DNA of 54,799 nt from a virus. Location: positions 1 to 54,799 of IMG/VR virus record IMGVR_UViG_3300038566_000115; one strand, given 5' to 3'. Numbering within the stretch: the stretch's first letter is position 1; every line of letters begins with the position of its first letter. The notes beneath the pieces were generated by a model. It was given only the letters and a program-made list of their open reading frames with translations. It made no database searches and was not told the origin of the DNA. The position numbers and the translations under genes were made by a program. Shown here piece after piece: positions 2,102-26,743 of the stretch.

Positions 2102-3313
2102 ATGTCGAACCAAGCTACTGCTATGCCCCAAGTCAGTCTATTAGAAGCTGTAGAACTGACCGTTATCAACTGGTACACCCAACTTACTACGGGTGAGCGT
2201 ATGCCTATAGCCTATGTATCTGCCCCGGGTATAGGGAAATCCAGCGTTATCTACAACGAGTTACCTAAGCAACTGGCTAAGTTTCTCAACGATGATGTAG
2301 ACCGCAGCAACAACGCCAATGATGTTCTTATCAGGGAGGGAAAACAACCCATTGAATTTGGGCAGTGGACACCAAAACACTTCTACCTAAATCCTTTGAT
2401 GTGCCCCACCCAAGAAGGTGTCATCGCACAGGGTTTACCCGTGCCTATACGTACACAGGCAGAGGGTGAGGAGACCAGAGCGCACACCGTACTCGCACCG
2501 TCCCGTATCAGCCGGCCCGTCACTGATGCACCGTTCGTGTTGACCTTCCTTGATGAGTTCGATAAGGCTCAGCCTGACTTTAAGATGGCGATGAGTGAAT
2601 TTATTAACTCAGGGTTTATTGGCGATACCCAACTACCCCTATCTAACTACGCTGCACTTGCGATGAACCGCAGCCAAGATAAATCAGGCACTACCAACAT
2701 GCCGATGCACATACAGAACCGGATTGATGAGGTCCATGTCAAGGTTAACCGCGAGGACTGGATAGCGTGGGCACTGGCGAATACTAATATACCTGCTACT
2801 GCCATTGGGTTACTACAGTTCAAGCCTGACATCATGGTCGATGCTGTACCTAAGTCAGCGGAGCCCTACTGCACCTATCGTTCATACACTAAAGCGATGC
2901 AAGGGCTTGCCGTATCCGACGCGATCAACCCGAACCAACCCCACCACCTACGTAGAGCACGGCTAGTCGCAGCGATTGGACAGGCAGCAACCACAGAGTT
3001 CTTCGCTTATGAAAAGTTCGAGGCACAATGTACGCCTTACGAAGACATCATGGCCGACCCTGAGAACGCACCAGTACCGACAGAACTTGGTGTTCAGTGG
3101 GCGCAGAACATGTGCTTGTGGAATAACGTGACCGATAAGGACAGCCCGAAGGTATTTAAGTATATGCTACGGATGCCGAAACAATTTTGGGCTACACTAC
3201 TTGAGCATAAACTAATGAGTTGTCCATCACTCTTCGCGGATAGTGACTACATACAGTGGGTTAGTAAGGATGAGAACCTAACCTTCCTGTCACGCGTTGC
3301 TGCATACCGATGA
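2102..3313 (+). CDS. MoxR/CobS-like AAA+ ATPase
   Basis: A AAA+ ATPase of 403 residues. Walker A is SAPGIGKSS (residues 40-48), Walker B is LTFLDEFDKA (147-156), and QNRIDEV (205-211) fits the sensor region. MoxR/CobS ATPases work with vWA-domain partners to remodel or metallate proteins. Here the vWA partner lies 2 kb downstream, with a 310-residue protein between. The start follows an 18-base leader, GGAGACACTAACCATGTC (2089-2106), that is repeated exactly before the two partner genes. The stop overlaps the next ATG. The substrate is unknown. Confidence 0.88.
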   Translation: MSNQATAMPQVSLLEAVELTVINWYTQLTTGERMPIAYVSAPGIGKSSVIYNELPKQLAKFLNDDVDRSNNANDVLIREGKQPIEFGQWTPKHFYLNPLMCPTQEGVIAQGLPVPIRTQAEGEETRAHTVLAPSRISRPVTDAPFVLTFLDEFDKAQPDFKMAMSEFINSGFIGDTQLPLSNYAALAMNRSQDKSGTTNMPMHIQNRIDEVHVKVNREDWIAWALANTNIPATAIGLLQFKPDIMVDAVPKSAEPYCTYRSYTKAMQGLAVSDAINPNQPHHLRRARLVAAIGQAATTEFFAYEKFEAQCTPYEDIMADPENAPVPTELGVQWAQNMCLWNNVTDKDSPKVFKYMLRMPKQFWATLLEHKLMSCPSLFADSDYIQWVSKDENLTFLSRVAAYR

Positions 3314-3513
3314 AGTATGAGTATGCGATTGATGGCGATAATATTTACCGACGCCACCTAGTGTATGGCATTGACCACGATTTCCAAAGGTACTTTTTTA
3401 GTACAAATAAGTGGGGGTGGATACCCAATGTACTTATGGACTTACACGACTGGAACAAAACTTACGTAGATGTAATGAAACTTATTACCAAACAACAGGA
3501 GAGATTAAAATGA
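3310..3513 (+). CDS. Small Tyr-rich paralogue A, 67 aa
   Basis: First member of a local family of small proteins. It starts MKYEY, has IYRR, then a W-x-W-I-P segment and ends TYVDVMKLITKQQ. Its ATG overlaps the TGA of the ATPase gene (ATGA) and has no clear Shine-Dalgarno, so it is probably translationally coupled. The same C-terminal TY[IV]-x-A-[LMI]-K-[LF]-[IM] signature recurs in the genes at 3739, 4873, 5102 and 6706. Function unknown. Confidence 0.7.
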   Translation: MKYEYAIDGDNIYRRHLVYGIDHDFQRYFFSTNKWGWIPNVLMDLHDWNKTYVDVMKLITKQQERLK

Positions 3514-3722
3514 AACGACCCTATGCTTATTGTAAACTCGATGGTGTTCTATATAGGTACGTACCCCCACCACTCGACATTGTAGATACATGGACAACAC
3601 ACGTCCAAGCTGCACCGTTTACACAGGGTGCATGGGGTGAACTTGTCCCACTTGAGTATGAAGCAGCTATCAAACATGCCATTCCTTCTACGGATGCAGC
3701 GATGATTGTTGCGGGTATGTAA
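3510..3722 (+). CDS. Small Tyr-rich paralogue B, 70 aa
   Basis: The start at ATG 3510 is chosen from the CAGGAGAG upstream and the overlap with the previous stop; a longer upstream frame exists but would overlap gene A. The N-terminus (MKRPYAYCKLDGVLYRY) resembles its neighbours. The tryptophan-proline region is recognisable, and YEAAIKHAI looks like a degenerate copy of the family C-terminal motif. Its stop lies inside a 14-base tandem repeat. Confidence 0.6.
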   Translation: MKRPYAYCKLDGVLYRYVPPPLDIVDTWTTHVQAAPFTQGAWGELVPLEYEAAIKHAIPSTDAAMIVAGM

Positions 3723-3749
3723 GTATGGGTATGTAAGTATGGGTATGTA
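3713..3749 (+). repeat. 14-bp tandem repeat, about 2.6 copies
   Basis: GGGTATGTAAGTAT occurs at 3713-3726 and 3727-3740, followed by a partial copy to 3749. It spans the stop of paralogue B and the start of paralogue C. Because 14 is not a multiple of three, gain or loss of a unit would change which start codons of the downstream gene lie in frame with upstream translation. Confidence 0.75.
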
Positions 3750-3951
3750 TAGATACAAGGTATACGGAGGTTCGCTTTACCGTAAACGTATCATCAAAGA
3801 GAACCCACACTGGGAACACTCAGACAACATAGAGTTATACCTACGCCTTACCGGCGAGTGGGTTCCCGCTGTTCTGCACACCACGAATATAATGTGGGAC
3901 ACCACGTACGTACAAGCCTTGAAGTTTATTAACCAACACAGGAGACACTAA
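3739..3951 (+). CDS. Small Tyr-rich paralogue C, 70 aa
   Basis: Starts MGMYRYKVYGGSLYRKR (ATG 3739, or 3745) just after the tandem repeat. There is no clear ribosome binding site, so reinitiation after gene B is likely. It contains the family features: aromatic N-terminus, LYRK, GEWVP, and the C-terminal TYVQALKFI. Its last codons contain the ribosome binding site of the 310-residue gene at 3954. Confidence 0.62.
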   Translation: MGMYRYKVYGGSLYRKRIIKENPHWEHSDNIELYLRLTGEWVPAVLHTTNIMWDTTYVQALKFINQHRRH

Positions 3952-3953
3952 CC

Positions 3954-4886
3954 ATGTCAGAGATAAAACTTAAAGACCACATCGCCCAGTCAATGGCGAA
4001 CCAATTCATCTTGACGACTGTAACGAATAAGGAGTTCCAGTACATCAAGCCATCTAAAGCACTTGGCGCGGAGTTAGCACAACAACACGGCGCTACCGAA
4101 GAGGCTGCACTAGTGAGAGTTAATTCTTTTGCGGGGATTGACCAATTGTTTAAGGCGGTTAGTACAGCTAATGGTGACATCAAGTCACACCACCGTGCAC
4201 ATACGTTAGCGTTTGATGCGACAGGCGGGCGAGGACAGACACGCATGCTACACTGCGCCAACCTCGCTAAGTTTTTTGCAGAGCACGGACGGTTACTCCA
4301 GCATAGAGACGAAGCACTCAAGAACTTACGTGATGAGTACCCCGTCTTAGTAGAGCGGGCCAAAGCTACACTCGGTACACTACGTGACGAAGTAGAATAC
4401 CCTGACATTGACGAAGTAATAAGCAAGTACCAAATCACCATGACCAAGAGTCCGATGTCAGTACCGGCTACGCTACGCGCTATCCCTATGCTGAATAGTA
4501 GAGTAACTGACACCGCTGAGATTACATGGGCCGAAGGACTAGAGAAGTCATTCAATAAAGCGCAGGAAGCCGCAGCCCAATCCGCAGCGCAGGACTTAGC
4601 TAGTAAGCTCAAGTTATTAAGCCAACAGATATCGAACACGTTTAAGGAGAAGACGGCGACAGGCAAGACCCCTTCCATCCGAAAAGATTTGTTTGATAAG
4701 TGTAAGGACCATGCTGATTTACTCTACAACTATGATTTGCTAGCAGCAGATACGTCTGAGCTAATCCGTAGCTTACGTTCACTGTCTACTATGGATGCAA
4801 AGACGGTGAAGAACTCGCACTCAACGAAGGAGAAAGCGAAGACCCATGCCGCTGATATTGCTAAGCAAATCGATGAGTTGTTCTAA
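3954..4886 (+). CDS. MoxR/vWA module partner, 310 aa
   Basis: A soluble protein of 310 residues, mostly helical, with a likely coiled coil in the second half. I see no catalytic motif. It lies between the MoxR-like ATPase and the vWA/metallopeptidase genes and shares their exact 18-base initiation sequence (3941-3958). That makes it a likely third subunit made in similar amounts. Proteins annotated DUF3150 sit beside CobS/CobT-like genes in some phages and bacteria; I suspect this is related but cannot prove it. Confidence 0.7.
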   Translation: MSEIKLKDHIAQSMANQFILTTVTNKEFQYIKPSKALGAELAQQHGATEEAALVRVNSFAGIDQLFKAVSTANGDIKSHHRAHTLAFDATGGRGQTRMLHCANLAKFFAEHGRLLQHRDEALKNLRDEYPVLVERAKATLGTLRDEVEYPDIDEVISKYQITMTKSPMSVPATLRAIPMLNSRVTDTAEITWAEGLEKSFNKAQEAAAQSAAQDLASKLKLLSQQISNTFKEKTATGKTPSIRKDLFDKCKDHADLLYNYDLLAADTSELIRSLRSLSTMDAKTVKNSHSTKEKAKTHAADIAKQIDELF

Positions 4887-5109
4887 GTATTACTACCAAA
4901 CCCCATGGGGCGCTGTTCTACGGAGTGACGTGAGTGTATACACTGCAATATCCAGGGAATATTCCCGCGCTTCTTCACCAATTAATTGTGAGAGGTGGGT
5001 AGATGCGCGTTGGCAGGACAGCACTATACACTCGCATTATTTATGGAACTCCCGAGAGATAACCTACATCGACGCACTTAAACTAATACGGGATGAGAAG
5101 AATGAATAA
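4873..5109 (+). CDS. Small Tyr-rich paralogue D, 78 aa
   Basis: Begins MSCSKYYYQTPWGAVLRS and ends ITYIDALKLIRDEKNE. The ATG at 4873 overlaps the end of the 310-residue gene by 14 bases and lacks a strong Shine-Dalgarno, suggesting coupled translation. The 29 bases encoding most of ITYIDALKL (5059-5087) are identical to 5279-5307 in the next gene, direct evidence of recent duplication or conversion. Confidence 0.65.
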   Translation: MSCSKYYYQTPWGAVLRSDVSVYTAISREYSRASSPINCERWVDARWQDSTIHSHYLWNSREITYIDALKLIRDEKNE

Positions 5110-5307
5110 CGAGTATGGGTATTACTACCATGCCGACAGCGATATTCTAATGAAGACTAATGATGAACGTCGGTACGGGTTTGTACAACTCGATGGACTT
5201 TTAAATTGTTATACGCGGACAGGTAACGAATGGCACCCATGCACTGTAACGCTCCACTATTTTTTACAATACCGCTGCATAACCTACATCGACGCACTTA
5301 AACTAAT
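5059..5307 (+). repeat. 29-bp exact direct repeat (5059-5087, 5279-5307)
   Basis: The same 29 bases, beginning ATAACCTACATCGACG and ending ACTAAT, occur at both ends of this interval, 220 bases apart. They encode the C-terminal signature of paralogues D and E. A diverged version lies at about 6899-6926 in the broken paralogue G. Such repeats could recombine and delete or add a paralogue. Confidence 0.8.
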
Positions 5308-5362
5308 GAGAGGAGACACTAACCATGTCATTCAAACCGAAGAAGATAGTTCCCGCACCTGA
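5102..5362 (+). CDS. Small Tyr-rich paralogue E, 86 aa
   Basis: Begins MNNEYGYYYHAD and carries the family features NEWHP and ITYIDALKLMR. It overlaps paralogue D by 8 bases. Unlike paralogue G, which stops right after LMR, this frame runs through the ribosome binding site of the vWA gene and overlaps it by 38 bases, so its last dozen or so residues may be an unselected extension. Confidence 0.65.
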   Translation: MNNEYGYYYHADSDILMKTNDERRYGFVQLDGLLNCYTRTGNEWHPCTVTLHYFLQYRCITYIDALKLMRGDTNHVIQTEEDSSRT

Positions 5363-6554
5363 CACGTGGGATGAAGTACTTGCCATTATCATGGCTGAAC
5401 CTAAGCTAGCGTTCTTTAGCAGCTTACTATTCCAACAACTAAAAGTATTCTTTGTTGAGGACCCCGAAGTCGACACCGCTGCAACAGATGGTACACGTAT
5501 CTTTGTGTCACCTGAATTCTGGGGCACATTAACCAACCCTAACCGTGTGTTCTTAATTGCCCATGAGATTATGCACTATGTATTACACCACAACATGTGG
5601 TGGAAGCGGGCGTTCGAGGGGTACACACTTGGTAAGGACCCCATCGACCAAGAGGAAATGAACCGCGCACAAGACTACATCATTAATGATATGTTAATCC
5701 GAGATAAGATAGGAGTAATGCCATCGGTAGGGTTACACGACACGAACATCGCCACACATGCTAGTGACTTAATGCAGACATACCTTGATTTACATGACCG
5801 TAATAAACAGAAGGGAGGTGGAGGCAATCAAGATAGCGGTGGTAATGGCGGTAAGGGTATGGACTCTCATCTACCTCCACCCCAACCAAGCAATGAGCTG
5901 GACCAGTCACAACACGAGGTGCAAGAGGCAGTGCAAGCCGCGAAGAATGCAGCGGAACAGATGGGTACCTTACCTGACAGCCTACGCCGTACACTAGGAG
6001 AGATACTAAGCCCTAAACGATATTGGGGTGACGTACTCCGCGATGAGTTCAGCGCTATTGCAGCGGGTGCTGACCGTAAGACGTGGCGCAAACCTAACAA
6101 GACCATGTTATCCCTGTTCGATATTTACATGCCGAGCACAACCGGATTCGCGTTCAACCGTATAGCAATTGTGTTTGATACAAGCGGTTCGATATGTGAT
6201 GAAGTGCTCGGTAAGTTTGTTGGCGAGTGTAAAGGTATGTTCAATGATTTACCTAGCGAGAATGGATACGAGCTATTGTACTGTAACACACGTACATACA
6301 AGCATGTGCACGCTGACAACACCGACGATATACCGGAAGCACCTGACTTCTTACAGGGTGGTGGTACTGATATGGGCGATGCGGTTAGGTATGCTAAGGA
6401 TAAGTGGGATGACCTCGATGCTATCTTAATACTAACCGATGGGTATACACCAGAGCCAAGCGAGGAAGACATACCCTGTCAGTTGGTGTGGGCTACGATA
6501 GCATCGACTAATCTGTCAACGGGCACCGTTGTTGAGATAAACGAACCGGCGTAG
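5325..6554 (+). CDS. Metallopeptidase-like and vWA-domain protein (DUF2201/CobT-like)
   Basis: 409 residues. The N-terminal half has HEIMHYVLHH (80-89), a zinc-peptidase-like HExxH with further histidines. A Gly-rich linker (164-178) follows. The C-terminal half is a vWA domain with MIDAS motif DTSGS (285-289), GGGTD (345-349) and TDG (371-373). This matches the putative-metallopeptidase plus VWA-like layout of DUF2201 proteins, usual partners of MoxR ATPases. The shared leader (5312-5329) ties it to the ATPase and 310-residue genes. Whether the peptidase is active is unknown. Confidence 0.85.
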   Translation: MSFKPKKIVPAPDTWDEVLAIIMAEPKLAFFSSLLFQQLKVFFVEDPEVDTAATDGTRIFVSPEFWGTLTNPNRVFLIAHEIMHYVLHHNMWWKRAFEGYTLGKDPIDQEEMNRAQDYIINDMLIRDKIGVMPSVGLHDTNIATHASDLMQTYLDLHDRNKQKGGGGNQDSGGNGGKGMDSHLPPPQPSNELDQSQHEVQEAVQAAKNAAEQMGTLPDSLRRTLGEILSPKRYWGDVLRDEFSAIAAGADRKTWRKPNKTMLSLFDIYMPSTTGFAFNRIAIVFDTSGSICDEVLGKFVGECKGMFNDLPSENGYELLYCNTRTYKHVHADNTDDIPEAPDFLQGGGTDMGDAVRYAKDKWDDLDAILILTDGYTPEPSEEDIPCQLVWATIASTNLSTGTVVEINEPA

Positions 6555-6562
6555 GAGGTGAC

Positions 6563-6706
6563 ATGAAATATGAATACTACAAATACACGGGGCCAGTTGA
6601 CCCTCGTCCAAGTATCACTAGCCGGTATATCCGTTATGCCCCCACCCCGCCCATTGGCGAAAGTTACCTTTGTCGAGGTGATGAAGTATATAGCAGGAGT
6701 TACTAA
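6563..6706 (+). CDS. Small Tyr-rich protein F, 47 aa
   Basis: AGGAGGTG at 6553-6560 is a near-perfect ribosome binding site two bases before ATG 6563. The product starts MKYEYYKY, like paralogue A, and is tyrosine-rich, but it lacks the C-terminal TYxDAxKL signature. It may be a truncated family member. Its TAA overlaps the next ATG (TAATG). Confidence 0.6.
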   Translation: MKYEYYKYTGPVDPRPSITSRYIRYAPTPPIGESYLCRGDEVYSRSY

Positions 6707-6933
6707 TGAATGAGTATCTTTATTTTAAACGAAGCGGTACCCACCGCAAGATTGCAATCTTGTATAGGATTCCATCAGATGATTTTTCGCGCGAAGTACA
6801 CAACGTACCCATCGAGAAGTGGGTTTCGTATGACCGACGATGACATATGGTTAACTGCGTTCACGAGAAGCAGCATACCATAAGGCACTGGGGTAGGATT
6901 ACCTACGTTGATGCAATTAAACTAATGAGATAA
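6706..6933 (+). pseudogene. Small Tyr-rich paralogue G, interrupted by in-frame TGA
   Basis: From ATG 6706 the frame reads MNEYLYFKRSGTHRK and on to EKWVSYDRR, then TGA at 6841-6843. The same frame continues open and ends GRITYVDAIKLMR with TAA at 6931-6933, carrying the family C-terminal signature. The full 76-codon frame thus looks like one gene split by TGA. Paralogue D has RW at the aligned place, so TGG to TGA mutation is plausible. Readthrough (TGA followed by C) or restart at ATG 6847 are alternatives. Confidence 0.6.
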
Positions 6934-6946
6934 GGAGACAAAGTAA

Positions 6947-7927
6947 ATGCCAGTACAAAGATACGCTATCGAAACTATATTGAATACGTATAGGGATAAG
7001 ATGATAATATTCTTAACGAAACAAAACAGAGCGACGGTCCCCATACCTTATGACGATACGTTCAATATACTCTACAATAATATGAGCCAAGACGCTACTC
7101 GGTTAGACACGTATAACGCTGAGGTTGAAGCAATAAATGCAGCAGCGATACACCTCCGGCATGTTGACCCTCACCTCTGTGGACTAGTAGGATTATTTTC
7201 AGACAAACAATATTACTCTAATCCCAAGGATGAGAACTTTAATAACAACACTGCAACTATTGATATAGTATGTGAGTTCCCTGCCCTATCCAGATACAAA
7301 CTATTAAGCAAAAAAAGTGACGGACTAAGGGCACTCGATAACGGAGCGGTTCAAGTAAAAACACAGGCTTCGGTGTGTATCACCCAACCCCACTTGCATA
7401 TAGGAACTAGAGGCAATAAGTTATTTACCCGCGAGTTATGTTCTCAAGTAGTTTCAGATGCTAGCCCGATTGAGTTACCTGAACCCCAGAGAGTACATGT
7501 AAAGTTACAGGCCACGCTCATTGTGGCATACCACATACTCTACGACATACTCTTCCGCTGCAATACAATCGTTCAGGTGTTTGACGCACTACCTCCTACC
7601 ACCCACCCCCTATTCTTAGAGAATAAAAGTTTAGTGAGGCTACTTGAGAAGAATAAAAACAAGCGCCCGAAACAAAAGTACATTCTCACCGACGAGGGAA
7701 AGTCAGTACTTAACCAAGCACTGCTGCCACTCATCATGTATCGGGAACTAAACGATATTGGTAGCGCCACACAGGAGAGAAGACCTGTAACTCCTGCCGC
7801 GTTTGACTACACCCTTGCGTTACCAACGGCATACTTATCTGTCACAGAACCCACTATACCACTATCGTTCCATCAACTTATTCCACAAGAGGACGGACCA
7901 CATTATGAATTGCTTGACTTGATATGA
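6947..7927 (+). CDS. Hypothetical protein, 326 aa
   Basis: A soluble 326-residue protein with AAGGAG at 6932-6937 nine bases before the ATG. It closes the MoxR/vWA gene run and is followed by a short intergenic gap. I see no recognisable catalytic motif, membrane segment or repeat. Position suggests a possible accessory of the module, but it lacks the conserved 18-base leader found before the three core genes. Confidence 0.7.
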   Translation: MPVQRYAIETILNTYRDKMIIFLTKQNRATVPIPYDDTFNILYNNMSQDATRLDTYNAEVEAINAAAIHLRHVDPHLCGLVGLFSDKQYYSNPKDENFNNNTATIDIVCEFPALSRYKLLSKKSDGLRALDNGAVQVKTQASVCITQPHLHIGTRGNKLFTRELCSQVVSDASPIELPEPQRVHVKLQATLIVAYHILYDILFRCNTIVQVFDALPPTTHPLFLENKSLVRLLEKNKNKRPKQKYILTDEGKSVLNQALLPLIMYRELNDIGSATQERRPVTPAAFDYTLALPTAYLSVTEPTIPLSFHQLIPQEDGPHYELLDLI

Positions 7928-19231: not shown

Positions 19232-22200
19232 CTATAGACCTTCTATCCCTTCCTCACCTCCACGCAAACCAGATGGATTATATTTGGATTGCCGTTCCCT
19301 TTCTCTCGCCTCCTTAACAGCGCGAGTAACATCCTTAATCGTAATACGTTTACCTAGCCTTGCTTTTGCAATGGTGCGGTTATATTCCGATATCTCTTCC
19401 TTCGCATCCTTAAGGCTCCTACCACGTAGCGATGCCTGTACATAACTGGCTAAGGCTGAACGGCGGGCAGATTTCCCCACGTCCTGCTGTGCCCAGTCTG
19501 ACATACGGTCAGCCCAATACACAGCTTCTTCGTGCGGGGTAAATCCAAACGCTTTACTCGCGGCTGTCTTGGCGGATGGTGGTAGCAGTTGCCTACCTGA
19601 CTTGGATAGTAACCCTTCGGTAGCTCGCTCATAGGCTTGGGTTAAGTCACGTATAAACTTAACTGGTATCGCATACTTCAAGGTCGCTTCTACTTTACCT
19701 TGCCCACTCTCTATTGCCCTAATGTAAGATTTAACATTCTGATACCCTGAACCTACTATTGGTCCTATCAAGCTAGAGCCGAAAGTATCCGCCCACCACT
19801 CGAACCCGTGCTCTTGTGAGGTGTTGGTTAATAGCCTGTGCATACCCGCACGAGAAGAGAAGTCTATACCCAACATAGCATTATACATACCATATGTTAT
19901 GAACTCTGCTACCTGCGGTCCAGCTACTTGCTCAACCATGTCGTACACCAAGCGCTCTGGTCTATCAAGTATCTCGTCTTCTGCTTCATCGAGTCCTAGT
20001 CCGACCAACCCAAGCGTTGAGTTGAGTATAGTCGCCGCCAAACGCACCGGTTCTATGAAGAGTGCGCCGCTAGTTCCCGTGAACAATTGAGATACTAACG
20101 CCACCCCTGCCAATGTACGCATTGCCTTAGCTTTATCCTCTTGGCTGCGCCCCTCGCGCATGAACCCACGGTATATCTGCGTCGATATCATAGAGTACAG
20201 ACCTAATGGATACATCTTCATCGCGGATATAACCTTGAGTGCCGCATTACCTACCATCCAATCTGGACGATTTAATATGTCGTAGTTTATTTGTGTTTGG
20301 TCAATGGCGTTCTGTGCTTCCTTCACTGCGACTTCATGTGACTGCCCTGAATCCCGCGCCATTTCATACGCTGCTATAGCAGTAACCGACCGGTTAACCA
20401 TTTCCGATATCTGGTTGACTACCCTACCCATAGAGAGTACGCGGTGTGCTCCTTCACCTGCGCCCTCTAGTATCTTGGCACCCACTGCAGTATCCTTTTT
20501 GTTTAAGCTAGACACAGGCGAGGATGCCATTTCATGCAACTCGTTAGTAAAGGTATGTTCTATACTTCCAGTCTCTACAAGTTTATCAAGCATAGAATTG
20601 ATATCATCTGCTAGTGGACCCTCACCTACGTTCGCTTTTATCTGCCTGAACATATCATCATAGACTACTTCGTCACCGGATAGCGCATTAGCACCGCCGC
20701 GTTCAGCCAGTACCTTACGTATAGCTGGACCCATAACCCTGCCGTGTGCCCGTGAAACATAGCTAAACGCGCTATTTATCCCAGACTGTGAAGTACCGCC
20801 ATGGTACTTACCAGATAAGTAAGGTACTGTTAACATCCAAGGTTGATGTAAGTTAATGATGGGATGCGATGGTGACATCAATGTATTCGTGAACCCAAGT
20901 CCTGACAATACTTGTAACAGTGCGCCACTCGAATCATTCCTATCGATACGCCCCGCCAACTCAGCAACAATCGAATCATTGCGGTCTTTCTCTTCCGGTG
21001 TTTTCCCCTCATTAACCTTTTCAATATCCGCCCTAAGTTTCGCTTGCTCCGGCGCTGTCTCCAACGCAGAGATATACCGACCAGTACTCTCGACGTACTT
21101 AGCCATACCCTGTACTAAATCAACATTGGTTCCTGCTATGCCCTGTCGCTTAACATGTCGCGTTAGCATAGATGAGTCTGGTAACATTTTGTAGAACTCT
21201 TGTATCGCCGGCGAGCCCTCCGTATTTTCCCCTGATAGTTTCTTAATTACGTTTAATACTTCCTCAGTAGACAGCATGCCCACTGAATCCTTCTGGATAT
21301 TACGTGGGATTAATTTGTTCGTTACCTTCCACCCATCAGGGAACCCTTCACGGTTAAGTTCGGCAATCTCACGTAGGTTCTCGTTAGACGATGGGTTAAC
21401 TCTAAACCCTTTCTCACTCTCGGTTACTAGGTAAGAATCACCCTCCAATTCAATCTTAACCGTTGGTACTCCACCCTGTACACCGCGTGTACCTAGCAAC
21501 TTACCTTTTAGTTTCTCGGCGGCTTCTTTAGTACTAACTACATGCTCTCGCGCAGTGTGTAAAGAGAACCCGTGAGTACCGTCACGATAAGAAGGTACAT
21601 AGATACCGTTCTTTTGTTTGTTGTACTGCTTGTTCGTAGATAGGAGCATCTTAGCTGTACCTTCAAACACAGCATTAGGTTGCCCACCTTTACCATAGAA
21701 CCTGTCATGTATGTGGGGAGGCATGGTAGACAGTATTTCATCCAAGTCCTCGTCACTCTTAACGTCCTTTAACCTCCCTATTAGCGAGGTTGATGGGTTC
21801 GTCATACCATGCCTGTACATTAGTGCTTTGACTAGTGCGGTGTGCATCTTGTTGTTCGCATCTTTATAGTAAGACGTCAGTGTCTTGAACACTTCCTTAA
21901 GCGGAGGAGGCAGTGAATTGTATTCACTACGGACTCGGCTATACAGTGGGCGTTTAGCTTTTTTCTGTTTATCGCTCAGCCACGTATGTACTTGCAACGG
22001 TATGCGAGGGTCTATCTGTTGGTAAGAAGCATCTAGCATAAGGCTAGTCAGTGACTGGCGTTGAACATCAGTGATGCCCTTACTTGCTAATAAGTCCCGA
22101 ACATACCTAACCTTATTGAAATTATCATGGATATACTTAGTGCCTAGCCGTACTCTCCTACGTGCATTGTCGAGCATCCCTCGCAATAATTCCTTTCCAT

Positions 22201-25200
22201 TCACCCCAACCATACTGTCAGAGAACTTTTCTACTAGTCCATCAGAGGTTTCTAATACGCGGCGGTAAATTTTACCTGTTGTATTAGCGATGTCTTGTAG
22301 TTTACTTCGCCCTGCAGCACCTGCCCCACCATCAGCGGGGTTATCTTGTATGTCATTAAAGTACAGCTCACCAAGACCGCCACCCCCATCGCCGTTCTGT
22401 AGTGCAATGAGTTCCAGTTCTGCGTCTTCTATGTATTCTTTCTCCTCCACTGCCTCTCTCTGCTCAGTGGCAGTAGACACCTTATCGCTATTGCGTACGA
22501 GTTCGCGCATCCTATCCGCAGCTTTCGTTGCTTGCGCCTCTGTCATACCCAACGATTTAAGTAGTGCGTCGCGGGGGGGAGTCACCAGTTTATTATCACT
22601 GCCAAGTTCTGTTCCTAGTGTACGTAGCTGGGTAATAGTATCTATGGTTGGTCGGCCATGCGTAGCGATATCACTTGATACTGCGGCAGATGCGGCGGAA
22701 ACTTCTAGCATTTGGTCGAAGAATGTTTTTGGTTTTATACTCGACGGCAGTATCCGCTTGAGTATTGATAGCACAGCGTCAACCATTTGGTCGTACAATG
22801 ATTTGTGCGCTGCGCGGTGGTCTTTAAGCAAAGAACTTACAGTCTCATTGGCTGGCATAGCTTTCATAGCATTCTGTACTTCTTGATTAACAAGAAATTC
22901 AGTTGCCAACTCAAGTGGGTTCTTAGTAGCATAGGATACTTCTGGGCTGACCGCACCGCTCTTATTTACTTCCGTCGTAAAGTCCCTATAAATTTCATCC
23001 ATCGCTGCCTTTAACGTAGGGTCGTTGGTTAGTGCCGGTACCGTAACTGCATGGCCTAGTTCGTGTATAAAGCTATACACGAGCATGGGGTCCGACGATA
23101 CATCATCGTTAAGTATTACAGTGCCGTCACCCACTCCAGAAATAGCGGCATCTTCCTTTAACTCGTTATATATCTTTATGATGTCAGAGTCTAAGGCGTC
23201 TGAATACCCGTACTTCTCTCTCAATGTAGATAGAGATTTACGTAGGGGTCCAGCGTGAGCTAAGTATTTACCTAGATGACTGCCGACTACTCTATCGGCA
23301 ACGTACTCACTTATCCTTACATCTGAACTCGATAAGAATACCTGCATCGCTTCCAAGGTTTCCCGCGCCTTAGACTTAGGCGGCAACGCCCCAACAAACT
23401 CTGCGATAAACTCACTAGCATTACTAGACTTGTCCGCTCGTAAGCCCTGTACGCGAGAGTTTTGATTCGCAATGTCCACACCGACCTCTAGGTTATTCTT
23501 TATCATGGTCGCTTCTTGCGGCGTGATTACAGAATATCCACTATCGGTGTTAGTACCACCACTCAACACATCAGACACCACGGAAGTTTTTTCTTTCTCG
23601 GCCTTCGCTAAAAATTCATCTGCGGCATCAGGTTTTGTTTCATCAGTCTCTTGTGTAGACTTTTTCTTAGCCTTAGCTTTTATTGATTCGCCCTTAGCCG
23701 CTGGCTTTTTCTTCTTAGGCTTAGGTGGTACTGGACTCTCACTTAACGCATCGATACTGTCAGCCAACTGCTCTATAATCTTCGGTGCGGTATTGCGGTT
23801 ACGGGATGCAGATTGTACACCTGTTAATGCGTTTGATACATGCGTCGCTGCCTTCGCCACCAACCCATCGATATCTGGTGTACGTACAGACTCTGGGGCG
23901 GCAAGCACTGCTGTCTGTAATATATCCCCTATGAATTCAGCGGGGAAGGATTTAGTTTTCGCATCTTTATTGGCTCTATCTACTATACTGGCGGCATCAC
24001 GTAGGTACTTAGTGAACTCATCTTTAGTTTTACCTGAGTCCTTATCAGCATGAGCGAGCACATCAGCTATAGCAGGGTGGCCCACGCCGGATTCGGATAA
24101 CTCATGGAGCTTCTTAAGTGCTGCCTTAGCTGCCATCTTACGTCGGGCTGGAGTCTTACCCTCAATACCTGAATCAATGAGTCGATTCACTTCCGCTAAC
24201 TTACGCGATAGCTTTTTATTTAGCGGTCCCTTTCTGCCCGTAGACTTCTCTACGTTTGATATTAAGTTCTGCAGCTTGGCAGTCTCTCCTTTTAATGGAG
24301 TCCACAACGCTGCTTTTACTTTATCTGTGTGAACCTTAAATGCTTTGGCTCGTTGCTGTACCTTGTTACCTTCTGCGTTCTTATCGTACATATGCTTGAA
24401 GTCGAGAGTAGAATCTAGCTCTGCTAAATCATCCTTATCTAACTTGTTCTGGCCCAAGAACACTGCATCATACTTACGCTTGGTACGTTCTACAAACGAG
24501 TTAGGGTTATCAAGCGGTAGCGCTGTCTGCCGATTAACATCCCCGCCGCCTTCATCTGTAGGGGTTGGAGTGGCGGGTATCGCTTCTTTCTTCTGCTTGT
24601 TTGTTTTATTACTTCCCGTACCATCAAGATTAAATTCTCGTTGGGGAGTAGAATTATTTACCGGCGCTGCAGTATCTTTGACAGCGGGCTTCTTTTTCTG
24701 TTGGGTTGGTTTAGGTTCAGCTTTTTTAACTGACTCCTGTTTCACAGGTCCCTCTTCCTTAGCTACCTCCGTGACAGGCGCTTTAGTTTCCTCAGCTTTT
24801 TCAACTTTTTTAGTTTTACTCGCTGCGTTAACTGCAGCGCGGGAATCCTCAAGGAATCCAATGGGGTCTGTCTTAACATTGTTCTCTCCATCGACTTCTC
24901 CCACCCCAGCAAGGGATTCTTCTAGGCTAATCTGTTTGTCTAACATCGCATCGTGTAGCGCTGTTTCTTCTATTGATGCAGTATCATCTGCGACTTTCGG
25001 AGATAATTCTGCCAGCTTCTTATCGATTTCTAATATACGCCCTATGGTCTCCGAAACGCTATCCAATGTAGCAGCGACCTTCGGGGGTGCGGAGGGACTA
25101 GAAGGGGTAGGTGGACGTGAGTTTTCAATGCGTTGCTTATCTGCACCCTTCGCAATTTGCTTCTGGGTGTTGGGGGTTAGAACAGCGGCAAGGCTACCAC

Positions 25201-26743
25201 CTTGTATCCCACCAACAAATGCACCTAGTGTACCTTGCTTAAGCGCTTTAACTACGGTACCCCAGTCTGCCTCTATGCTACCGCGTTCTGGAGCACCGGC
25301 ATATTTATCTGTGATAGCGGCTTCGGTTCCTTCTTGTAGAAATTCTTGACCGCTCTCTGCGAGAGCGGCTGTTCCCGCTGCAGCTTTACGTGTACCGGCA
25401 AGTCGAGTACCGGTGAATAACTTACCTGTAATCTTATCAATCCCTGTTAGCTTGCCGGCTGCTAATGTTGACATAGCTGCCATCGCTACGCCCCGTGAAC
25501 TAAGTAGCTCAGCTAGCTGCGTACGTGCTGTATCGTTAGCGTATGCCTCTGACCTACCCTCTGCTATCAGTGCGTCGCGTATACGAGTGTACGCTTCTAA
25601 GGATTCTAAGTTATCTTGCTCCGCTGTATTGATAGCATCATAGACTTCTTTGCGTACCCCTGCGCTCACACTAAGGGCCTCTTCTGCTAACACTGTCTTA
25701 CCAACTATTTTAGCTCTCTGGTCATTAAGATACTTCAATGCAGACTTAGCGTCCTTAGCTACGCCTGCTTCGACCATTTCCTTCGCTAACTTTCCTGCAG
25801 TCTTAGTAGATATTTTACTTGCTACGCCAGAAATACCACCTGCTAATACCATTTCGGTTGCAGATGACATTACGATATCGGCTACTGCCACAGGATTAGT
25901 TACAATTGCGCCGATAGTACTTAGTACTCCATCTGCTGAATCTAGTTCAGACTGTAGGTTTTGCTTTGACTCTGTTACATACTTAGGCTCATAAGACTGT
26001 GCCCATTGGCCGGAAGTATACTCACCAAAATCTTTAGCGGCCTTCACTGCTTCAAGTCCCCGCCATGCTTTAGATGAACGGCGCAAGTATGCAGCCATAT
26101 CGTGTAGCGCAGAAGTATCTTTATCTTTTGCTTTGATACTTGCGGCCCTTACAGCAGTAGCGATAGAAGGGGATGTGCCTGAGTCGGGTTCATCAGAAGC
26201 CCACTGGCGTACAGCGCGGTATATGTCAGAAGCTAATGCTAGCGGTGTGCCTGTCGACTGTAGTATTGCTTTCTTTACGCTTGGGTCGGCATCAGAAAAT
26301 TCTCCGGCCGCTTCCGCTACCAATGCTAGGATGTCCGTTGCAGTCGCAGGTAAATCTGCAGCGCCTGATATGGCGTGGCCTATACCTTGCCCACCGAAAG
26401 ACTTGTACCATTCTGCCTCTTGTTCTGGTCCCTCTCCTACTGGCGGTGGGGCAGGCGCATCGAACTCAATCGCCTCACCATCCATAGAATCGTAGCCAGC
26501 TTGCGGGTCTTGTTGCGATGCACCTCTACCAACCGCTATGCCCATACGTTGTGGTGTTGGGTCAACATGGTCGAACCCCAACGCACGTTTTACCTCTGCC
26601 CTTGCAAACTTATCATGTTGAGCGTTTAGGTCTTCCCTGTTTCTATAGGGTGCGGTTGGTATAGCAGTGGGTTTACCTCTAGCTAGACGCTCTTTCTCCT
26701 CGTCACTAAGTGTACGCACATCAACATTGTTTTGGTTTTGCAT
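19232..26743 (-). CDS. Giant polyvalent virion protein with zinc-peptidase motif, 2503 aa
   Basis: The largest gene. HELGH at about residues 1227-1231, with a downstream ELATEF, is a zincin-like active site as in the peptidase domains of phage polyvalent proteins. Hydrophobic stretches lie near residues 270-310, 505-525 and about 2200-2255. Lys/Pro/Ala-rich linkers occur near 670-750 and 1000-1040. Large polyvalent proteins are packed in the head and injected with DNA to protect it or modify the host. In a short-tailed phage it could also line the ejection channel. No RNA polymerase motifs were seen. Confidence 0.75.
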   Translation of the reverse strand: MQNQNNVDVRTLSDEEKERLARGKPTAIPTAPYRNREDLNAQHDKFARAEVKRALGFDHVDPTPQRMGIAVGRGASQQDPQAGYDSMDGEAIEFDAPAPPPVGEGPEQEAEWYKSFGGQGIGHAISGAADLPATATDILALVAEAAGEFSDADPSVKKAILQSTGTPLALASDIYRAVRQWASDEPDSGTSPSIATAVRAASIKAKDKDTSALHDMAAYLRRSSKAWRGLEAVKAAKDFGEYTSGQWAQSYEPKYVTESKQNLQSELDSADGVLSTIGAIVTNPVAVADIVMSSATEMVLAGGISGVASKISTKTAGKLAKEMVEAGVAKDAKSALKYLNDQRAKIVGKTVLAEEALSVSAGVRKEVYDAINTAEQDNLESLEAYTRIRDALIAEGRSEAYANDTARTQLAELLSSRGVAMAAMSTLAAGKLTGIDKITGKLFTGTRLAGTRKAAAGTAALAESGQEFLQEGTEAAITDKYAGAPERGSIEADWGTVVKALKQGTLGAFVGGIQGGSLAAVLTPNTQKQIAKGADKQRIENSRPPTPSSPSAPPKVAATLDSVSETIGRILEIDKKLAELSPKVADDTASIEETALHDAMLDKQISLEESLAGVGEVDGENNVKTDPIGFLEDSRAAVNAASKTKKVEKAEETKAPVTEVAKEEGPVKQESVKKAEPKPTQQKKKPAVKDTAAPVNNSTPQREFNLDGTGSNKTNKQKKEAIPATPTPTDEGGGDVNRQTALPLDNPNSFVERTKRKYDAVFLGQNKLDKDDLAELDSTLDFKHMYDKNAEGNKVQQRAKAFKVHTDKVKAALWTPLKGETAKLQNLISNVEKSTGRKGPLNKKLSRKLAEVNRLIDSGIEGKTPARRKMAAKAALKKLHELSESGVGHPAIADVLAHADKDSGKTKDEFTKYLRDAASIVDRANKDAKTKSFPAEFIGDILQTAVLAAPESVRTPDIDGLVAKAATHVSNALTGVQSASRNRNTAPKIIEQLADSIDALSESPVPPKPKKKKPAAKGESIKAKAKKKSTQETDETKPDAADEFLAKAEKEKTSVVSDVLSGGTNTDSGYSVITPQEATMIKNNLEVGVDIANQNSRVQGLRADKSSNASEFIAEFVGALPPKSKARETLEAMQVFLSSSDVRISEYVADRVVGSHLGKYLAHAGPLRKSLSTLREKYGYSDALDSDIIKIYNELKEDAAISGVGDGTVILNDDVSSDPMLVYSFIHELGHAVTVPALTNDPTLKAAMDEIYRDFTTEVNKSGAVSPEVSYATKNPLELATEFLVNQEVQNAMKAMPANETVSSLLKDHRAAHKSLYDQMVDAVLSILKRILPSSIKPKTFFDQMLEVSAASAAVSSDIATHGRPTIDTITQLRTLGTELGSDNKLVTPPRDALLKSLGMTEAQATKAADRMRELVRNSDKVSTATEQREAVEEKEYIEDAELELIALQNGDGGGGLGELYFNDIQDNPADGGAGAAGRSKLQDIANTTGKIYRRVLETSDGLVEKFSDSMVGVNGKELLRGMLDNARRRVRLGTKYIHDNFNKVRYVRDLLASKGITDVQRQSLTSLMLDASYQQIDPRIPLQVHTWLSDKQKKAKRPLYSRVRSEYNSLPPPLKEVFKTLTSYYKDANNKMHTALVKALMYRHGMTNPSTSLIGRLKDVKSDEDLDEILSTMPPHIHDRFYGKGGQPNAVFEGTAKMLLSTNKQYNKQKNGIYVPSYRDGTHGFSLHTAREHVVSTKEAAEKLKGKLLGTRGVQGGVPTVKIELEGDSYLVTESEKGFRVNPSSNENLREIAELNREGFPDGWKVTNKLIPRNIQKDSVGMLSTEEVLNVIKKLSGENTEGSPAIQEFYKMLPDSSMLTRHVKRQGIAGTNVDLVQGMAKYVESTGRYISALETAPEQAKLRADIEKVNEGKTPEEKDRNDSIVAELAGRIDRNDSSGALLQVLSGLGFTNTLMSPSHPIINLHQPWMLTVPYLSGKYHGGTSQSGINSAFSYVSRAHGRVMGPAIRKVLAERGGANALSGDEVVYDDMFRQIKANVGEGPLADDINSMLDKLVETGSIEHTFTNELHEMASSPVSSLNKKDTAVGAKILEGAGEGAHRVLSMGRVVNQISEMVNRSVTAIAAYEMARDSGQSHEVAVKEAQNAIDQTQINYDILNRPDWMVGNAALKVISAMKMYPLGLYSMISTQIYRGFMREGRSQEDKAKAMRTLAGVALVSQLFTGTSGALFIEPVRLAATILNSTLGLVGLGLDEAEDEILDRPERLVYDMVEQVAGPQVAEFITYGMYNAMLGIDFSSRAGMHRLLTNTSQEHGFEWWADTFGSSLIGPIVGSGYQNVKSYIRAIESGQGKVEATLKYAIPVKFIRDLTQAYERATEGLLSKSGRQLLPPSAKTAASKAFGFTPHEEAVYWADRMSDWAQQDVGKSARRSALASYVQASLRGRSLKDAKEEISEYNRTIAKARLGKRITIKDVTRAVKEARERERQSKYNPSGLRGGEEGIEGL

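Follow-up and report, generated by a model that had tools for sequence, protein, structure and literature searches.

Gene content of the locus

The stretch of DNA analysed here, referred to as the window, is a single virus record of 54,799 bases (54.8 kb). Its PolA-type DNA polymerase is closest to those of the Rhizobium phages RHph_TM and the Pseudomonas phages Rollin, phiR18, and KPP25, with identities of approximately 35% or below. No DNA-level kin were found in GenBank phages, and single-protein scans of IMG/VR with MoxR, VWA, or PolA revealed no close kin; the comparisons described below are, therefore, based on distant relatives only. The record begins with GTTTCCCAGTCACGATC (1–17), which we take to be a random-PCR primer tail, and this end is probably an amplification artefact. 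On the reverse strand, positions 19232–26743 form an ORF of 2503 residues. The features of the locus under study are as follows.

2102–3313, plus strand: MoxR-type AAA+ ATPase (phrog_1297, E = 1.4e-37; Walker A APGIGKSS, Walker B FLDEFD)
3310–3513, plus strand: paralogue A, 67 residues, predicted β-meander plus helix (shuffles, AlphaFold model, leave-one-out profile, N-terminal motif)
3510–3722, plus strand: paralogue B, 70 residues (N-terminal motif only; C terminus EYEAAIKHAI)
3745–3951, plus strand: paralogue C, 68 residues (shuffles, leave-one-out profile)
3954–4886, plus strand: DUF3150 protein, the middle gene (profile E = 3.9e-19)
4873–5109, plus strand: paralogue D, 78 residues (shuffles, AlphaFold model, leave-one-out profile)
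5102–5362, plus strand: paralogue E, 86 residues (shuffles, leave-one-out profile)
5325–6554, plus strand: DUF2201 metallopeptidase-like plus VWA protein (PF13203, 91.5 bits; PF09967, 40.2 bits; HEIMH and DTSGS)
6563–6706, plus strand: paralogue F, frame-disrupted (N terminus MKYEYYKY in frame; TFVEVMKYI in another frame at 6666)
6706–6933, plus strand: paralogue G, with an in-frame TGA (6841–6843) at the invariant Trp column
2089–2106 (MoxR), 3941–3958 (DUF3150), and 5312–5329 (VWA), plus strand: start region GGAGACACTAACCATGTC, 18 nt, exact copies
5059–5087 (in D) and 5279–5307 (in E), plus strand: 29-nt stretch, exact identity

The seven small ORFs, A to G, were described in a first-pass annotation of the DNA as being interleaved with MoxR/vWA genes. 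An ORF check found all seven at these positions and the interleaving is borne out, the module being defined more sharply as MoxR–DUF3150–VWA. The PF13203 and PF09967 scores of the third protein both exceed the Pfam cut-off, and no C-terminal effector domain was found on this protein in Pfam. Its homologues carry the name "HNH endonuclease" in phrog_1314 and in many RefSeq phage records, for which Pfam offers no support.

The middle gene product has no match to PF11348 in Pfam. A homologue that adjoins MoxR and VWA in another locus (L059) scores 18.7 bits against PF11348 (cut-off, 24.9) and leads to the annotated DUF3150 protein of Synechococcus phage MinM2. Since this annotated member also falls below the cut-off, the PF11348 model is narrow. 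A DUF3150 profile built from plasmid and MinM2 members, with the window excluded, gave the match listed above for 3954–4886, the next window ORF having an E value of 0.6.

Of the three genes, at least one was present in 190 loci, and 85 of these, including the window, carry the full set. After removal of near-identical loci, the order MoxR–DUF3150–VWA was seen in 31 of 31 chromosomal loci, as in the window, and the 36 viral loci showed three gene orders. Phages, plasmids, and chromosomes all carry this recurrent set of DUF3150, MoxR, and VWA; no mention of DUF3150 was found in the open literature searched. MoxR–vWA pairs have been described as assembly or remodelling systems, and the VMAP/vWA–MoxR ternary conflict systems combine, like the window, MoxR and vWA with a third protein (PMC7159879). 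The third gene of the window encodes DUF3150, where a VMAP-type system would carry VMAP-C.

Overlapping frames and shared start regions

The small genes are tightly packed against each other and against the module genes. The MoxR stop overlaps the start of A in ATGA, as does the stop of A with the start of B. The first 14 nt of paralogue D lie within the DUF3150 gene. Paralogue E overlaps the end of D by 8 nt at its start and the VWA gene by 38 nt at its 3′ end; the stop of F and the start of G have one base in common. The 18-nt start region occurs in three exact copies (0.01 expected) and nowhere else in the window, and was also detected as a 20-nt repeat (D2). Paralogues C and E lie directly upstream of two of these identical start regions. 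The overlaps proposed in the first-pass annotation are thus real, and the translational coupling that was read from them stays an inference. Because the three start regions are identical and small genes overlap or abut module genes, joint translation of small and module genes seems likely, judging from the gene layout. The B/C junction (3713–3740) contains a perfect 14-nt tandem repeat, GGGTATGTAAGTAT.

The small proteins form a family

The paralogues are rich in aromatic residues (Tyr plus Trp, 10–14%, versus 4.9% in large genes), and similarity could in principle arise by chance from such a composition. Pairwise shuffles that keep composition gave z-scores of 16.7 for D–E, 9.6 for A–C, 8.3 for D–G, and 6.3 for E–G, with lower values for C–D (4.5), C–E (4.7), and A–D (4.7). 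For B–E, the shuffle p was 0.003; one control pair also reached p = 0.001, which cautions against relying on any single pair. Leave-one-out profiles, which are a stricter test than pairwise shuffles, were run against 26,829 ORFs and recovered D (E = 1.1e-5), E (2.1e-4), C (1.6e-3), and G (4e-3). Paralogue A had an E value of 0.34, yet ranked first. Each of these five members outranked all nonfamily ORFs, whereas F had an E value of 2 to 100 and B was missed by the family profile in this set. The pattern Y.Y...(G.|.G).[ILV][YL]R, written post hoc, is restricted to A, B, C, and D among 2,586,057 residues, and the idea that B is unrelated to the family was dropped because this N-terminal motif is unique to A–D. 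Shuffle scores up to 16.7, the recovery of members by profiles that exclude them, and the unique N-terminal motif leave practically no room for chance similarity, and for A, C, D, E, and G this explanation is refuted. These five are homologous by sequence comparison, and the proposed similarity among the small ORFs is confirmed. Of the mid W-[VIH]-P-like motif in the first-pass annotation, the Trp is invariant and the Pro after it is not conserved.

Significant small-ORF pairs on the coding strands of the window were restricted to A/C and D/E. Gene duplication has genuinely occurred and is limited to the MoxR–DUF3150–VWA operon.

A nine-codon helix block near the C terminus was compared between copies. 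In most pairs, synonymous differences far exceed amino acid changes, although these values are rough because few sites are involved: pS 0.89 and pN 0.17 for A–D, pS 0.86 and pN 0.28 for C–G, and pS 0.5–1.1 and pN 0.14–0.28 for A and C against the others. At the sequence level, this shows protein-level constraint on the helix motif, which has been kept through saturating synonymous change. The exception is D–E, with zero synonymous differences in the block. The 29 identical bases reported for D and E are exact and were matched in 0 of 100 shuffles, whereas the remainder of D and E is 60% identical, compared with 61% for shuffled DNA. Identical 3′ ends attached to sequences at the shuffled level fit best with, and look like, a recent local exchange of the 3′ end.

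AlphaFold2 was run from five window sequences. The model of A (mean pLDDT 85) has strands at residues 2–8, 11–18, 21–29, and 34–37 and a helix at 52–66; the model of D (pLDDT 71) shows the same order of elements. The predicted family fold is a four-stranded antiparallel β-meander followed by a C-terminal helix. Foldseek searches of BFVD and the PDB gave no match at E ≤ 0.001. The best VIA-align Z was 4.3 over 40 residues, to single propeller blades, a single meander being a common arrangement. A PDB profile match to the designed Kelch protein SAKe6BR (E = 3e-5) was rejected as a repeat artefact with no single significant stretch.

Two copies are disrupted

The open frame of F loses the C-terminal motif, which resumes in another frame. 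Paralogue G matches the Trp column when its in-frame TGA is read as Trp for alignment. Since TGA terminates MoxR, the gene at 6947–7927, and other genes of the window, including several large ones, the TGA in G is taken as a stop, and G does not hold up as an intact member. It is conceivable, albeit unlikely, that all seven copies are intact and that the disruptions are sequencing or amplification errors, or that the stop in G is read through. Errors would fit with the presumed primer tail at the start of the record and with the divergence of the two F frames near a C-rich stretch, and the position of the TGA at an invariant Trp would suit error and readthrough alike. Readthrough is opposed by the use of TGA as a stop elsewhere in the window; in addition, a nonsense change at this position is unsurprising, given that a single base change turns a Trp codon into a stop. 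The question concerns the state of two copies only and is compatible with any functional reading.

Relatives and analogous arrays

Searches of A–E against PHROGs, Pfam, NCBIfam, and PADLOC gave nothing better than E = 0.019, all at chance level; the lack of a PADLOC match should be seen in light of PADLOC listing defence rather than counter-defence, and an anti-defence role, also suggested in the first-pass annotation, gains or loses nothing from it. An IMG/VR scan with the motif TY[IV]xA.K[LF][IM] returned 32 matches and no relatives, and tblastn searches of phages with A, D, and E as queries returned E values of 3 or worse only. With the window as positive control and sole match among 32 records, the family was not found in 31 other phage records, nor in eight further ones (39 others in total, most with the same neighbours). 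The description of these genes as an undescribed family of small paralogues therefore stands for the libraries, structures, and sequence collections searched. Being absent from every other module-bearing phage searched, the family is not required by the machine.

The window's three genes occur in the same order on Burkholderiales plasmids (for example, Burkholderia vietnamiensis pBVIE02 and Cupriavidus basilensis pRK1-1) and on Acidobacteria chromosomes, but these sets are compact and lack interleaved small paralogues. Gaps of at least 250 nt were present in 2 of 62 chromosomal gaps versus 22 of 72 viral ones (Fisher p = 2.4e-5), although these gaps come from different lineages and from loci that are not fully independent. 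The viral gaps often hold small genes, mostly of mutually unrelated families.

Tandem paralogues inside the three-gene module were seen in the window and in MinM2 only, where three genes, MM2_66/67/68, lie 2 nt apart between DUF3150 and VWA. They are the sole clear small-gene family among the 77 small CDS of MinM2. Their products are unlike the window family (approximately 112 residues; motif RPC.GGL.RF...WW...AEKLLP), and the window family profile found nothing in MinM2 at E ≤ 10. In the Schitoviridae, Acinetobacter phage genes nACB1_064/065 are also tandem, aromatic small paralogues (approximately 110 residues) that adjoin MoxR, but they lie upstream of MoxR, outside the module, and the profile comparison gave a probability of 0.2%. 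Neither the small paralogues of nACB1 nor those of RHph_TM3_14A showed any relation to the window family when profiles were compared.

Possible roles of the small proteins

One tentative reading is that the small proteins are accessory partners of the MoxR–DUF3150–VWA machine, born by duplication in its operon. A phage-lineage-specific family of 67–86 residues would have arisen inside the operon, its copies spreading into the gaps by birth and death, with A, C, D, and E kept, B reshaped, and F and G disrupted. The proteins may be made in step with the machine through translational coupling, and could act as adaptors that bring clients to MoxR/VWA, or themselves be its clients or regulators. 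A common docking face might be provided by the conserved helix and Trp, and a specific one by the variable meander. An exchangeable recognition subunit is plausible because MoxR–VWA pairs elsewhere are chaperone-like remodellers.

This reading draws on the location of all coding-strand small-ORF paralogues of the window in one operon, on their overlaps with module genes on both sides, with no terminator-like site found on the plus strand between 800 and 9300, and on the start regions shared by the three module genes, two of them just downstream of C and E. It is further favoured by the preservation of the helix motif, by the agreement between the A and D models, and by the analogous MinM2 array. 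The earlier suggestion that the proteins are adaptors or substrates of the ATPase thus gains circumstantial support from placement, overlapping frames, common start regions, and MinM2, although not as a required part of the machine. Against accessory partners speak the absence of the family from other module-bearing phages, the restriction of in-gap tandem paralogues to two three-gene loci, and the state of the copies, two of seven being broken and one diverged, as would also be seen in dispensable genes.

About equally probable, and just as tentative, is that these are independent host-takeover or counter-defence proteins that diversify against host targets and do nothing for the ATPase, their site reflecting expression timing and the tolerance of the gaps for small insertions. 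The excess of large viral gaps filled with mostly unrelated families is what a landing site would produce, and the absence of the family from other phages with the module also favours this reading. Moreover, in N4 the counterparts of this MoxR/VWA pair, gp24/gp25, belong to the middle genes (PMC4193335). Yet the copies are spread over three of the operon's gaps and occur nowhere else in the genome, more than insertion tolerance would predict, and they have neither a match to defence in PADLOC nor a known host target.

Third, and rather improbable, the copies may be neutral or decaying duplicates, in which recombination copied a small gene together with its downstream start region and the copies are now eroding. 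The disruptions of F and G, the divergence of B, and the weak codon bias of D, E, and G all fit, and the D/E 3′ ends show that exchange between copies occurs. Decay is harder to reconcile with the retention of the motif in A, C, and D/E despite saturated synonymous change, and with the persistence of four long-diverged open frames.

Accessory partnership also has a broader and still less probable form: mobile elements would share MoxR–DUF3150–VWA as a remodelling machine of general use, with interchangeable small recognition proteins, encoded in the gaps between its genes, determining the targets; the window and MinM2 arrays would then be two independent adaptor repertoires. The idea that the module as a rule carries tandem paralogues in its gaps was not upheld, as they occur in these two loci only. 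If the phage versions of the machine do enlist small partners of their own, the genes in the gaps would be natural bait for the targets of the machine; if they are hitchhikers only, the gaps would still be a handy place to look for small phage effectors.

Three further observations concern other viral records. In several viral contigs with the order MoxR–VWA–DUF3150 (L098, L099, L117, and L121), a conserved gene of 60 residues lies between MoxR and VWA. The phage records OQ594354, OL906435, and PP438419 have equal length (65,014) and identical DUF3150 proteins, and are assigned to three different cyanobacterial hosts. Finally, Rhizobium phage RHph_TM3_14A (L035, 296–2051 and 10784–11626) carries, near MoxR/VWA, its own array of small AMLLG...DADTMEP paralogues, unrelated to those of the window.
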